Part shown: positions 5,159 through 8,856 of the stretch, in pieces
Layout of the letters: the number at the start of each line of letters is the position of its first letter
How positions within the stretch are numbered: position 1 is the first letter of the stretch
NCBI RefSeq assembly: GCF_940670765.1
Contig: NZ_CALNVW010000020.1
Span: 248,001-312,000 of the forward strand
DNA: 64,000 nucleotides
From: Streptomyces sp. A 4/2
Lineage (GTDB): Bacteria > Actinomycetota > Actinomycetes > Streptomycetales > Streptomycetaceae
Direction: 5' to 3'
Made by a program: the position numbers and the translations under genes
Notes under the pieces: generated by a model
Databases searched by the model: none
What the model was told of the DNA's origin: nothing
The model's input: the letters and a program-made list of their open reading frames with translations, nothing else

Positions 5159-6691
5159 ATGGACCGCACAGCGCGCACGAACGACCGTTATTCCCGTACC
5201 CGCACCGGTGGTGGCTCCGGCCGGGGCGGCTTCCGCTCCCAGGCCCCGAGCCGCTCGGGGGGGTCCGGCCGGTCCGGTGCACCCAACCGTTCCGGTGGCC
5301 GGGGCCGTCGGCCCGCCGCTCAGCAGGGCGAGTTCGCCCTGCCTGTCACCCTCACCCCGGCGCTGCCGCCGGCCGCGTCGTTCGCCGACATGGAGATGCC
5401 GTCCGAGCTGCTGAAGACGCTCGCCGGTCTGGGGATGACCGAACCGTTCCCCATCCAGTCCGCCACGCTGCCGAACTCGCTGGCCGGCCGGGACGTCCTG
5501 GGCCGCGGGCGCACCGGATCGGGCAAGACCCTCGCCTTCGGCCTGGGCATGCTCGCCCGTACCGCCGGACAGCGGGCCCAGCCCCGCCAGCCGCTGGCCC
5601 TGGTCCTGGTACCCACCCGTGAGCTGGCTCAGCAGGTCACCGACGCTCTGACGCCCTACGCCCGCTCGCTGAGGCTGCGCCTCGCCACCGTGGTGGGCGG
5701 TATGTCGATCGGCAGGCAGGCGAGCGCCCTGCGCGGTGGGGCCGAGATCGTCGTCGCGACCCCCGGCCGGCTCAAGGACCTCATCGAGCGTGGGGACTGC
5801 CGCCTCGACCGGGTCGGCATCACCGTGCTGGACGAGGCCGACCAGATGGCCGACATGGGCTTCATGCCGCAGGTCACCGAACTGCTCGACCAGGTACGTC
5901 CCGAAGGCCAGCGGATGCTGTTCTCGGCCACCCTGGACCGCAACGTCGACCTTCTGGTCCGCCGCTACCTGCACGACCCGGTGGTGCACTCGGTCGACCC
6001 GTCGGCCGGCGCGGTGACCACGATGGAGCACCATGTGCTGCACATCCACGGCACCGACAAGTACGCGACCACTACCGAGATCGCTGCCCGGGACGGCCGG
6101 GTGCTGATGTTCCTCGACACCAAGCACGCCGTGGACCAGCTCACCAAGCACCTCCTGAACAGCGGCGTACGGGCCGCGGCGCTGCACGGCGGCAAGTCCC
6201 AGCCGCAGCGCACCCGTACCCTCGCCCAGTTCAAGACCGGCCATGTCACCGTGCTGGTGGCCACCAACGTCGCGGCCCGCGGCATCCACATCGACAATCT
6301 GGACCTGGTCGTCAACGTCGACCCGCCCAGCGACCACAAGGACTACCTGCACCGTGGCGGGCGTACCGCCCGTGCCGGGGAGTCCGGCAGTGTCGTCACT
6401 CTGGTGCTGCCCAACCAGCGCCGTGAGATGAGCCGTCTGATGGCGGACGCCGGGATCACCCCGCACATCGCGCAGGTGCGGTCCGGGGAGGCCGAGCTGA
6501 GCCGGATCACCGGCGCACAGGCTCCCTCGGGTGTGCCTGTCACCATCTCCTCGCCGGTCGCGGAACGCGCGAAGGGCGGCTCGTCGTCGGCCCGCGGACG
6601 GCGCAGTCGGCCCGCTCAGGCCCGGCGCTCGTCCGGCTCGCCCCGTGGTCGCTCGGGCAATCCGCCGCAGCCGTTCAAGAACGCCGCCTGA
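5159..6691 (+). CDS. DEAD-box ATP-dependent RNA helicase
   Basis: A 510-residue RNA helicase. Motif order is standard: motif I RTGSGKT, Ia PTRELAQQ, Ib TPGRL, II VLDEAD, III SATLD, then C-terminal VLMFLDTKH, TNVAARGIHIDNLDLV and YLHRGGRTARAG. The N-terminal 60 residues are Arg/Gly/Ser rich, and the C-terminal tail is Ser/Arg rich; both probably bind RNA. The start ATG is set by GAGGGAGGA; an earlier GTG lies upstream of that site. It lies downstream of the cold-shock gene, though a terminator separates them, so it is probably a separate cold- or stress-induced unit. Confidence 0.92.
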   Translation: MDRTARTNDRYSRTRTGGGSGRGGFRSQAPSRSGGSGRSGAPNRSGGRGRRPAAQQGEFALPVTLTPALPPAASFADMEMPSELLKTLAGLGMTEPFPIQSATLPNSLAGRDVLGRGRTGSGKTLAFGLGMLARTAGQRAQPRQPLALVLVPTRELAQQVTDALTPYARSLRLRLATVVGGMSIGRQASALRGGAEIVVATPGRLKDLIERGDCRLDRVGITVLDEADQMADMGFMPQVTELLDQVRPEGQRMLFSATLDRNVDLLVRRYLHDPVVHSVDPSAGAVTTMEHHVLHIHGTDKYATTTEIAARDGRVLMFLDTKHAVDQLTKHLLNSGVRAAALHGGKSQPQRTRTLAQFKTGHVTVLVATNVAARGIHIDNLDLVVNVDPPSDHKDYLHRGGRTARAGESGSVVTLVLPNQRREMSRLMADAGITPHIAQVRSGEAELSRITGAQAPSGVPVTISSPVAERAKGGSSSARGRRSRPAQARRSSGSPRGRSGNPPQPFKNAA

Positions 6692-6720
6692 GCCAGAACC
6701 CGCGGTAGCCGAACAGCCAC

Positions 6721-6755
6721 GTGTCGCCGCTCCGGATTCCACGGAGCGGCGACAC
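6721..6755. terminator. 14-bp hairpin between convergent genes
   Basis: The arms 6721-6734 and 6742-6755 pair perfectly around a 7-base loop. It lies between the helicase and the flavin reductase and can serve both. Confidence 0.82.
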
Positions 6756-6768
6756 AGCTGTCTGCGGA

Positions 6769-7293
6769 CTACCCGCGGTGCGCCTCCAGTGGATCCGGAG
6801 CGGCGAAGGCACCCTCGTGGTGGACCAGCCCCGCCTCCTCGCTGCGGCTGCCGCCGGTCTCGACCTCTCCCACGACGAAGAGATGGTCACCGATGCGCTC
6901 CCGCAGCGTCACCCGTGCGGTGAGCCAGGCCGGAACGGTGTCGAGCAGCGGCAGCCCGTCGGGCTCCGCCGTCCATTCGGCGCCGGTGAAACGGTCGATG
7001 CCGCTGCGGGCGAACTGCCGCGCCAGCGTGGTGTTCTGCGGGCCGAGGACATGGACGGCGAAGCGCTCGGCACTCCGTACAGCGGCACTGGTGGATGCCG
7101 AGAGGCCCAGGCAGAAGGAGACCAGGGCCGGTTCCAGCGAGACCGAGGTGAAGGAGGTCGCGGTGAAACCGGCCGGGCCCGGCACCGTGATCACCGTGAC
7201 TCCCGCCGCGTGCCTCCGGAGGGTGCGGCGGAGTATCTCGTCGGGGGCCGGGCTCCCGGCGGACTGTGCGGATCGTTCAGCGAAGACGGTCAT
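6769..7293 (-). CDS. Flavin reductase family protein (FMN-binding split barrel)
   Basis: A 174-residue flavin reductase of the HpaC/SsuE-like split-barrel type, which makes reduced flavin for a partner monooxygenase. Typical stretches are LRRHAAGVTVITV, GFTATSFTSVSLEPALVSFC and HLFVVGEVE. The ATG start giving MTVFAERS has a GAGAGGG site upstream. No monooxygenase gene is adjacent. The same strand 333 bases upstream encodes a small leaderless peptide of the actinobacterial cysteine-containing leader family, often found before sulfur-assimilation genes, so sulfonate or sulfur metabolism is a reasonable guess for this enzyme. Confidence 0.85.
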   Translation of the reverse strand: MTVFAERSAQSAGSPAPDEILRRTLRRHAAGVTVITVPGPAGFTATSFTSVSLEPALVSFCLGLSASTSAAVRSAERFAVHVLGPQNTTLARQFARSGIDRFTGAEWTAEPDGLPLLDTVPAWLTARVTLRERIGDHLFVVGEVETGGSRSEEAGLVHHEGAFAAPDPLEAHRG

Positions 7294-7626
7294 ACCGCGT
7301 CCCTCTCGGGGTGTCGATGGTGGGGGTGCTGTTCCACGGGCCGGATCCGGAGTTCGGTGCGGGCAGGCCGGCGCCGACGCAGGCACGGCACAGCGGCCAC
7401 GCCGGGCAGCGGTCACGCCGGGCAGCGGGCGCTCGAAAAGCGGGAGTGACAGGAAGGCCGACGCCGGATGCGTACGGCTGCCGTCGGCGTCGGGTGACCC
7501 GCGTGGTGGGCTGACGCACTGCGGTGGACGTCAACGAGGGGGCCGGTGAACGGCCGCACGCCATCTCCGCGACGGCGGAGCGGGCCGGGGCGCCGTAGGG
7601 CCAAGAGGCCCGCTACGGCGGTGGGT
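7294..7626 (-). promoter_or_regulatory. Leader region between leader peptide and flavin reductase
   Basis: These 333 bases carry no gene. An 8-bp stem (7458-7465 with 7486-7493) with an inner region could act as an attenuator structure for the downstream flavin reductase. Folding prediction would be needed to see whether alternative structures depend on ribosome position on the leader peptide. Confidence 0.35.
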
Positions 7627-7701
7627 TCAGCGACAGAGGGCGCTGGAGGTGCGCCGGTAGTCCACGTAGCGGCAGACCACGCCGGGGTGCATCACATGCA
7701 T
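7627..7701 (-). CDS. Leaderless cysteine-containing leader peptide, 24 aa
   Basis: A 24-residue open frame starting MHVMHPGVVC and ending RRTSSALCR. The pattern R-[YH]-V-D-x-x-R-x-x-S-A-L-C-R at the C-terminus matches the family of Streptomyces putative leader peptides found before sulfur-metabolism genes. A near-consensus promoter (TTGACA, 17-base spacer, CAGGAT) lies so close that transcription would begin at the A of the ATG, giving a leaderless message. Two cysteines, one second from last, fit cysteine-dependent attenuation. The regulated gene is presumably the flavin reductase downstream. Function is inferred, not shown. Confidence 0.68.
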   Translation of the reverse strand: MHVMHPGVVCRYVDYRRTSSALCR

Positions 7702-7737
7702 GCCCCGTATCCTGCTGGGCCCGCCTGCCCCTGTCAA
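7702..7737 (-). promoter_or_regulatory. HrdB-type promoter driving a leaderless transcript
   Basis: On the minus strand the -35 TTGACA (7737-7732) and the -10 CAGGAT (7714-7709) are separated by 17 bases. Seven bases later comes the ATG of the leader peptide, so start of transcription and start of translation coincide. Confidence 0.7.
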
Positions 7738-7823
7738 CGGACACCTTCAGGTGTCTCATCGTCCGAGTCCTGGGGCTGTACGTCCGGGCGGGCCGGATGC
7801 CTGAGCTCCGCCCCACCGGCACG

Positions 7824-7857
7824 GCCCGCTCGCGCGAACCCGGACGCGCGAACGGGC
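7824..7857 (-). terminator. Hairpin terminator downstream of chitinase
   Basis: The arms 7824-7836 and 7845-7857 pair in 12 of 13 positions around an 8-base loop, 43 bases after the chitinase stop. Confidence 0.7.
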
Positions 7858-7900
7858 GGGGAGCCGACTCCGCCCCGCCCGTCCGGTCGCTGCACGCAGG

Positions 7901-8785
7901 TCAGCAGCTCAGGTTGGATCCCGCGGTGGTGCCCAGAATCCCGACGAACCGCTGGTAGGCGTCGATCCGGCTCTGCACCTGGGCCGGGTTGCCGCCATTG
8001 CACTCGATGCTGCCGTTGATGCTGCGGATGGTCTCACCGAATCCGGCGCCGTTGACCATCGCGTTGTGCGGGGTCATCGTGCCGGGGCCGGTCTGGGTGT
8101 TCCAGTACCAGAGGCCGGTCTGCCAGGCCACGGACGCGTCGGTCTGCACCAGGCCGGGATTGTCCAGCAGGTCGATCCCCAGAGCGTCGCCCGCCGCCTT
8201 GTAGTTGAAGTTCCAGCTGAGCTGGATCGGTCCGCGCCCGTAGTAGGCCGCCTGGCCCGCCGGGCAGCCGTAGGGCTGCGAAGTGTCGCAGTAGTGGGGG
8301 TAGTTGTCGGTGTTCTGCTCGACGACGTAGACGAGGCCGCCGGTCTCGTGGCTGACATTGGCGAGGAAGGCAGCCGCTTCCTGCTTCTTGACCGTGTCGC
8401 TGCCGGTGTTCGCGAAGGCCGGGTAGGAGCTGAGGGCGGCCGTCAGCCCGCTGTAGGTGTAGAAGGAATTCCGGTTCGGGAACATCTGGTTGAACTGGTC
8501 CTCGCTGACGACGAAGCCGGAGTTCGTGGGCGGCTCGGTACCGCCGTCACCGCAGACACCCTGGTCCGACCAGACGTCGGAGGTGCCCGGGGTCTCGTTC
8601 TGGGTCCACCATTTCGCCGACCAGTTGTGGCCGTTGTACGAGGCGACCAGTCCGCCGGTGTACACGGACGAGGAATTCCACGCCGTGGCACACGTCGCTG
8701 CCGACGCCGATGTCATCGGCAGGAAGACCGCGAATCCGATGGCCGCCACCAGGGCGGTGAGCAGAGCCGTGATGCGTCGTGACAC
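7901..8785 (-). CDS. Secreted GH19 chitinase with N-terminal chitin-binding domain
   Basis: A 294-residue secreted endochitinase. A Sec-type signal peptide ends near TSASA-A. It is followed by a CBM5/12 chitin-binding module (WNSSSVYTGGLVASYNGHNW, then WWTQNETPG), a short linker with PPTNSG, and a GH19 catalytic domain. The catalytic acid is the Glu of VSHETGG; AYYGRGPIQLSWNFNY is the family signature. The GTG start has AAGGAG upstream. Two DasR-like sites around the promoter predict induction by chitin or GlcNAc. This is the streptomycete ChiF/ChiG type that also attacks fungal walls. Confidence 0.95.
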   Translation of the reverse strand: MSRRITALLTALVAAIGFAVFLPMTSASAATCATAWNSSSVYTGGLVASYNGHNWSAKWWTQNETPGTSDVWSDQGVCGDGGTEPPTNSGFVVSEDQFNQMFPNRNSFYTYSGLTAALSSYPAFANTGSDTVKKQEAAAFLANVSHETGGLVYVVEQNTDNYPHYCDTSQPYGCPAGQAAYYGRGPIQLSWNFNYKAAGDALGIDLLDNPGLVQTDASVAWQTGLWYWNTQTGPGTMTPHNAMVNGAGFGETIRSINGSIECNGGNPAQVQSRIDAYQRFVGILGTTAGSNLSC

Positions 8786-8856
8786 GTGATCACTCCTTCG
8801 TGCGGCACATCGCGACAACGATGTCCGCTTGTGGGGGTGAGGGAACTCAAACGCCT

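Follow-up and report, generated by a model that had tools for sequence, protein, structure and literature searches.

Within the window, the 64,000-nucleotide stretch of Streptomyces DNA analysed here, a short minus-strand leader frame lies between a promoter-like block and a gene for a flavin reductase (Table 1). The neighbours are a class I chitinase gene (PF00182) upstream on the minus strand and a convergent DEAD-box helicase gene (PF00270) downstream; the chitinase ORF (window 7901-8818, minus strand) also carries a carbohydrate-binding module (PF02839). When we re-read the window's sequence and ORFs, the coordinates and distances in a preliminary description of the locus proved correct: CAGGAT is read as a -10 box 7 nt before the leader ATG, a 24-residue minus-strand frame ending in SSALCR runs from its ATG at 7701 to a stop ending at 7627, and the ATG of the reductase (7293, minus strand) begins 333 nt past the leader stop. 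A palindrome at 7755-7740 falls just beyond the interval covered by that description, yet is part of the conserved unit.

A generic sigma-70 scan of positions 6500-8500 listed no promoter on either strand, so our promoter assignment rests on conservation. The leader frame can be extended upstream to a TTG at 7737, and the position of the promoter argues against this codon as its start. We found no intrinsic terminator (hairpin plus U tract) in 6500-8500 on either strand, and a search of 7200-7900 against Rfam gave nothing at E up to 1.

Table 1 Features of the leader and reductase locus in window coordinates
Feature	Position	Strand	Remarks
Palindrome GACACCTGAAGGTGTC, candidate operator	7740..7755	.	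Perfect; 2 nt upstream of the -35 box
-35 box TTGACA	7732..7737	-	Conserved as TTGACA/G in 31 of 35 alignment rows
-10 box CAGGAT	7709..7714	-	17 nt from the -35 box; 7 nt to the ATG
Leader frame MHVMHPGVVCRYVDYRRTSSALCR plus stop, 24 codons	7627..7701	-	ATG is the predicted transcription start
Leader codon 10, TGC (Cys)	7672..7674	-	Always Cys among the 27 distinct leaders (26 TGC)
Leader codon 23, TGT (Cys), proposed stall codon	7633..7635	-	TGT in every one of the 27 distinct leaders
Untranslated spacer, 333 nt, C-rich	7294..7626	-	Sequence not conserved
Predicted hairpin in spacer	about 7620-7591	-	
SD-like GAGAGGG in spacer	7307-7301	-	Ahead of the reductase
Flavin reductase, 174 aa	6769..7293	-	PF01613, 116.5 bits (cut-off 27), E 1.5e-33

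Conservation of the promoter and leader peptide

Searched against 295 genomes of the genus, the upstream DNA had 36 matching places (E ≤ 1.3e-19), distributed over 33 genomes including the window's own. Identity over the 35 other matches was 75-87%, and 12 of them ended exactly at the leader stop (7627), 22 at 1-20 nt after it and one at 50 nt after it. Across these genomes, the conserved block comprises the promoter and the leader; the rest of the spacer is not conserved. A leader peptide profile built from 13 peptides recovered 36 full-length places in the same 33 of the 295 genomes, beyond which came three partial matches (36-53 bits) and then scores of at most 25 bits. We aligned the window with all but one of the other 35 full-length places, giving 35 rows and 27 distinct coding sequences. 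Among the latter, all-pairs differences at codon positions 1, 2 and 3 numbered 594, 828 and 1650, and residues besides cysteine were also conserved.

Upstream of the frame, the -35 box was recognised in 31 of the 35 rows, and in all 31 the palindrome ends 2 nt upstream of it and the -10 box stands 6 or 7 nt before the ATG; the same gap of 6-7 nt was seen in 95 of 96 matches from a wider pattern search of species genomes (below). A tolerant pattern matched the palindrome in 34 of 35 rows. Of the four rows that lack a recognised -35 box, three keep the palindrome but have no TTGAC, and that of S. niphimycinicus has neither. As judged from this comparison, the leader and its promoter are a real, conserved unit of the cysteine type, and the promoter geometry predicts a leaderless message whose transcript would start at the leader AUG. 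We also considered a conserved structure in the spacer and rejected it, since folding of its first 110 nt gave a mean z of -0.86 over the 35 rows and an alignment of 22 spacers conserved little past the spacer start.

Relation to known cysteine leaders and the terminal UGU codon

The preliminary description had likened the C-terminal end of the peptide to Streptomyces leader peptides linked to sulfur genes, and this resemblance holds in pattern, not in score: residues 11-23 align with the last 13 positions (7-19 of 19) of NF042934 (putative leader peptide, cis_reg_atten), but at 15.4 bits (E 0.011) against a cut-off of 27. Four relatives' peptides likewise scored 15.2-15.9 bits against that cut-off. 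In terms of these scores, the window peptide is a divergent relative of NF042934 and not a member. Common to both are the C-terminal core, a terminal cysteine encoded by TGT, and sulfur or cysteine genes behind the members in the same genome, whereas the window type has tyrosine in place of the usual leucine after aspartate, its own N-terminal half (MHxxHPGVVC) and its own promoter block with the palindrome. Against NF042936 (Ms4527A Cys-rich leader; cut-off 45), the window peptide gave no match at E up to 10 and one relative scored 17.3 bits.

Like NF042936 and the mycobacterial cysteine leaders, as presented in the accessible text of PMC9094748, PMC13236596 and PMC4633059, the window type is a short, presumably leaderless frame with Cys codons near its end and probable sulfur genes behind it; unlike them, it has no run of Cys codons and stands before different genes. 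The leaders of Mycobacterium, Propionibacterium and Bifidobacterium (PMC1262725) also place Cys codons near the stop and lack a conserved terminator, with Rho proposed, but they have runs of Cys codons, and the accessible part of that report gives no Streptomyces case. In S. lividans TK24, several leaders are reported to be transcribed leaderless and some to have no obvious terminator; the eight leaders in the accessible part of that report concern Leu, Trp, Ala, Ile, Met and Thr, none being given there as cysteine-dependent (PMC8079986). In the open-licence literature that we searched, we found no report of this leader ahead of a flavin reductase, nor of the fixed UGU codon described below. 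The comparison supports reading the frame as a cysteine attenuator; the preliminary description had the anatomy right and probably the role as well, and our additions to it are the palindrome, the fixed UGU codon and a proposed origin from an operon.

Within the window genome, NF042934 itself finds six leaders, five of them above cut-off. Behind them stand a cysteine synthase gene (TIGR01136, above cut-off), a gene that we take to encode a cysteine dioxygenase (no NCBIfam match at 1e-10) and, each below cut-offs, genes for proteins resembling sulfite/nitrite reductase, a sulfurtransferase and a dicarboxylate symporter. One canonical cysteine leader, on contig C28 (98500-106000), is followed by a pair of genes for luciferase-type monooxygenases; the first, of which the reading is incomplete, is NtaA/DmoA-like (below cut-off) and the second a PF00296 member. 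Because the surrounding 7.5 kb showed no flavin reductase, these two enzymes would be natural candidate partners of the window reductase.

The terminal cysteine is encoded by TGT in all 27 distinct window-type leaders, which are recoverable at the peptide level. The last conserved cysteine of NF042934 is likewise TGT at 35 of 35 genus loci (the 30 best-scoring and five more from the window genome) and at the 30 best-scoring loci of the class, 27 of which lie outside the genus (65/65 together with the genus loci); so is that of all 14 motif-found leaders before a second flavin reductase family (see below). These counts are not independent trials, as the leaders have a common ancestry and our reading was confined to the best-scoring; but in the window genome alone, 7 of 7 leaders, ahead of seven different genes or operons, have TGT. 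TGT in the 107 matches of the wider pattern search is no evidence, as the pattern itself demands it. As background, the 66 Cys codons in 17 ORFs of the window include 7 TGT, and the class matches have TGT at 10 of their 51 other Cys positions; in 34 genus leaders, it accounts for 0 of 24 Cys codons in the 12 codons upstream of the terminal cysteine and 2 of 15 downstream. Since the flanking bases vary, the constraint looks confined to the codon. For an alphaproteobacterial cysS leader, UGC is reported to dominate (PMC8632094).

Genes behind the leader in relatives

Scanning 84,980 species genomes with a DNA pattern for the leader core yielded 107 matches at 106 loci, those with a genus name all in Streptomycetaceae (Streptomyces, Actinacidiphila, Kitasatospora and Streptacidiphilus). 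Carriers of the element include S. albidoflavus and Streptomyces sp. SirexAA-E. Thirteen matches had less than 450 nt of downstream sequence and met no seed family. In all 94 remaining, readable places, the first recognised same-strand gene, 42-946 nt past the leader stop, encodes a transporter solute-binding protein or a flavin enzyme or SfnB-like protein, a figure that is a description and not an independent test, because the seeds came from nine leader loci plus the window, partly of the same species, and intervening non-seed genes would be missed. An ABC solute-binding protein comes first in 76 of the 94, followed by an SsuD-type monooxygenase (5), an SsuE-type FMN reductase (4), an NtaA/DmoA-type monooxygenase (3), a PF01613 reductase (3, of which one is in fragments), an SfnB-like protein (2) and another luciferase-type enzyme (1). 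The leader's DNA signature thus pointed to transporter and flavin-enzyme operons at every readable place of one large scan.

Above cut-off, the relatives' operons hold SBP_bac_5, BPD_transp_1 (two permeases), ABC_tran (two ATPases), FAD_binding_3, Bac_luciferase, FMN_red, Cupin_2, Thioredoxin_5 and Rrf2, and among NCBIfam models TIGR03567 (SsuE), TIGR03860 (NtaA/DmoA) and TIGR00738 (Rrf2). Below cut-offs, their SsuD-like protein is nearest to alkanesulfonate monooxygenase, their SfnB-like protein to TIGR04022, and their Rrf2 protein matches the CymR and IscR models. They share the SsuE and NtaA/DmoA components with the SsuE/SsuD and SfnB sulfur-acquisition systems, but their SsuD-like and SfnB-like proteins do not reach the cut-offs, and the window reductase belongs to an unrelated fold family, PF01613. 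To judge by their enzymes, which suggest a sulfur substrate, these operons resemble sulfur-scavenging gene sets. Two points count against this: their solute-binding protein belongs to a family for peptides (SBP_bac_5), and enzymes of the NtaA/DmoA type have substrates without sulfur as well.

The window reductase itself has eight NCBIfam matches, all below cut-offs, and we therefore name no partner enzyme for it. Pairwise dN/dS against six relatives is 0.24-0.43; the gene is under purifying selection. Its closest orthologues are in two relatives, G028 (76%) and G021 (71%). In G021, the reductase is the last gene of a run (SfnB-like, SsuD-like, hydrolase, reductase) and lies 13.4 kb from a same-strand leader; in G028, the same four genes share one contig, and the leader lies near the end of another. 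No leader was found around a further orthologue (G003, 63%). Conservation of the leader at orthologous loci, which the preliminary description had made a check of its proposal, is therefore indirect: no leader stands directly before the closest orthologues, but that of G021 heads the operon-like run to which the reductase belongs.

In the window genome, the reductase stands alone behind the leader. The Rrf2 protein of the relatives' operon had no match in this assembly, while five control genomes gave matches; the best SsuD-like match reached 32% identity and the best SsuE-like match 35%, so that no close gene of either type was seen, absence from an assembly of 144 contigs not being proof. 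The simplest reading would be that the operon was lost in this strain and that its head and last gene were retained. Similar arrangements occur elsewhere: the leader directly precedes a PF01613 reductase in S. shenzhenensis (67% identity, start codon 272 nt after the leader stop) and S. hoynatensis (904 nt), and an SsuE-type reductase, at 160-353 nt, in Streptomyces sp. KL109B, Streptomyces sp. SPB074, S. griseoflavus and S. pilosus, the sequence beyond the gene being short for some of these. We do not claim that the lone arrangements arose independently, given that the reductase tree leaves 9 of its 11 inner branches open.

A second family of flavin reductases also has its own cysteine-type leader (motif M..ELLLxGRVHVDLARTASARCP; L314:4858-4956). 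We examined 29 reductase loci in other genomes, 28 within the genus and one from another family. In 14 of the 29, the end of such a leader lies 42-116 nt ahead of the matched region, and one more was recovered with a looser motif and NF042934. With 15 of 29 loci showing one, a cysteine-type leader before a flavin reductase is a recurring arrangement. These 15 reductases are about 44-50% identical to that of the window; before a 47% paralogue in the window genome, no such leader was seen. One genome with this second family has the reductase between a thioredoxin-like gene and genes that presumably encode electron-transfer flavoprotein subunits.

A proposed cysteine-responsive attenuator and its alternatives

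We consider it probable that the leader acts in cis as a cysteine-responsive attenuator: once the head of a larger operon of transporter and flavin-monooxygenase genes, it would now drive a lone flavin reductase. Ribosomes would load on the leaderless AUG of the leader. When charged tRNA-Cys is scarce, they would stall at UGU23, close to the stop, and the downstream message would be made or translated; with ample cysteine, they would finish the leader and leave, and expression would drop, Rho-dependent termination within the C-rich, untranslated spacer being the likeliest means. We infer stalling near the stop from the position of the UGU and from mycobacterial precedent in the accessible text of PMC4633059 and PMC13236596. 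Two things favour Rho: the length and C-richness of the spacers, and its proposed part in mycobacterial cysteine leaders (PMC1262725, accessible part). The C excess of the spacer ranks in the top 1% of local windows in 22 of 35 rows, with the window's own at 2.4% and five of the 35 unremarkable (7.7-25%). Reduced flavin from the reductase would serve, here in trans, monooxygenases that release sulfur from organic molecules. The palindrome next to the -35 box probably adds transcriptional control, in relatives by way of the neighbouring Rrf2 regulator. If so, the locus connects leader peptides of a class that has received little study with the supply of flavin and, probably, with the use of organic sulfur.

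A wider proposal, to which we give an even chance, is that cysteine sensing by actinobacterial leaders is codon-specific, in that the stall codon must be UGU and selection keeps this rarer synonym where nearby Cys codons are mostly UGC, and that the window has kept the whole sensing head for a lone flavin reductase after the rest of the operon was lost. Perhaps UGU responds more strongly to shortage because tRNA-Cys decodes it by wobble. With UGU fixed where most Cys codons are UGC, the question of leader-codon tuning becomes testable by a single synonymous base change.

Among other explanations, the end of the leader might pair with the SD region of the reductase, which a stalled ribosome would free; such translation attenuation has been described for cysteine genes of Mycobacterium smegmatis. 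For the window, pairing of the leader end with the 30 nt that precede the reductase comes to -20.4 kcal/mol, this SD region ranks second of 94 for the leader, the leader ranks first of 94 for the SD region, and the site is the best in the spacer when scanned as 30-mers. Swapping SD regions among all loci gave p 0.05, but swapping them within families gave p 0.68, and 5.1% of 6398 random 30-mers pair as strongly. With 14-nt windows, the best site fell at the SD in 4 of 94 loci, as often as for shuffled leader ends (4/94), and elsewhere in the window spacer; in full-length folds, the probability that the SD pairs with the leader end was 0.001 in the window and exceeded 0.2 in 7 of 93 loci. SD sequestration as a general step is thus not supported, and we regard it as unlikely for the window. 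Leader and reductase could instead be the remains of the deleted operon, with no regulated work left in this strain. The missing Rrf2-type protein and the low SsuD and SsuE identities given above would fit, as would S. niphimycinicus, where a decaying leader copy stands before reductase fragments and has lost promoter and palindrome. In the window, however, palindrome, promoter, frame and TGT codon are all intact, the reductase is complete and constrained, and six other species have similar lone arrangements, so that we hold this, too, for rather unlikely.

That the palindrome and its regulator alone exert control, the leader frame being incidental, draws on the frequency of both elements: the palindrome matches at 12 of 12 positions in 88 of the 107 pattern matches, and an Rrf2 gene lies in the upstream stretch of 60 of the 72 loci with at least 2.6 kb there. 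Of these 72, both elements occur in 59 and neither in two, the palindrome is present but no Rrf2 in that stretch in 10, and Actinacidiphila guanduensis has Rrf2 with a palindrome of 9/12; the two co-occur only loosely. Peptide-level conservation and the fixed TGT speak against an incidental frame, and two lone SsuE loci, in KL109B and S. pilosus, keep the leader while their palindrome has decayed to 8/12. We thus find control by the palindrome alone improbable. In these two strains, the best Rrf2 matches are 46 and 45% identical, compared with 60-76% in six others; the window departs from their pattern, with an intact palindrome and no Rrf2 found. Least credible, in our view, is a 24-residue peptide acting in trans as a functional product: residues other than cysteine are indeed conserved, but same-strand transporter or flavin-enzyme genes follow the leader in 94 of 94 readable places, and its C-terminal end is common to leaders before other genes of the same genome.

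We also searched the window genome for a palindrome regulon and claim no further targets, with 29 places at up to one mismatch against 27 for a control pattern; the sole other exact copy falls within an open frame.

In one relative (G120), a second operon copy is seemingly broken, with a partial leader and the solute-binding gene in pieces. In S. shenzhenensis, two leader copies lie on opposite strands of one 8-kb stretch, one before the lone PF01613 reductase and the other before a solute-binding protein gene.
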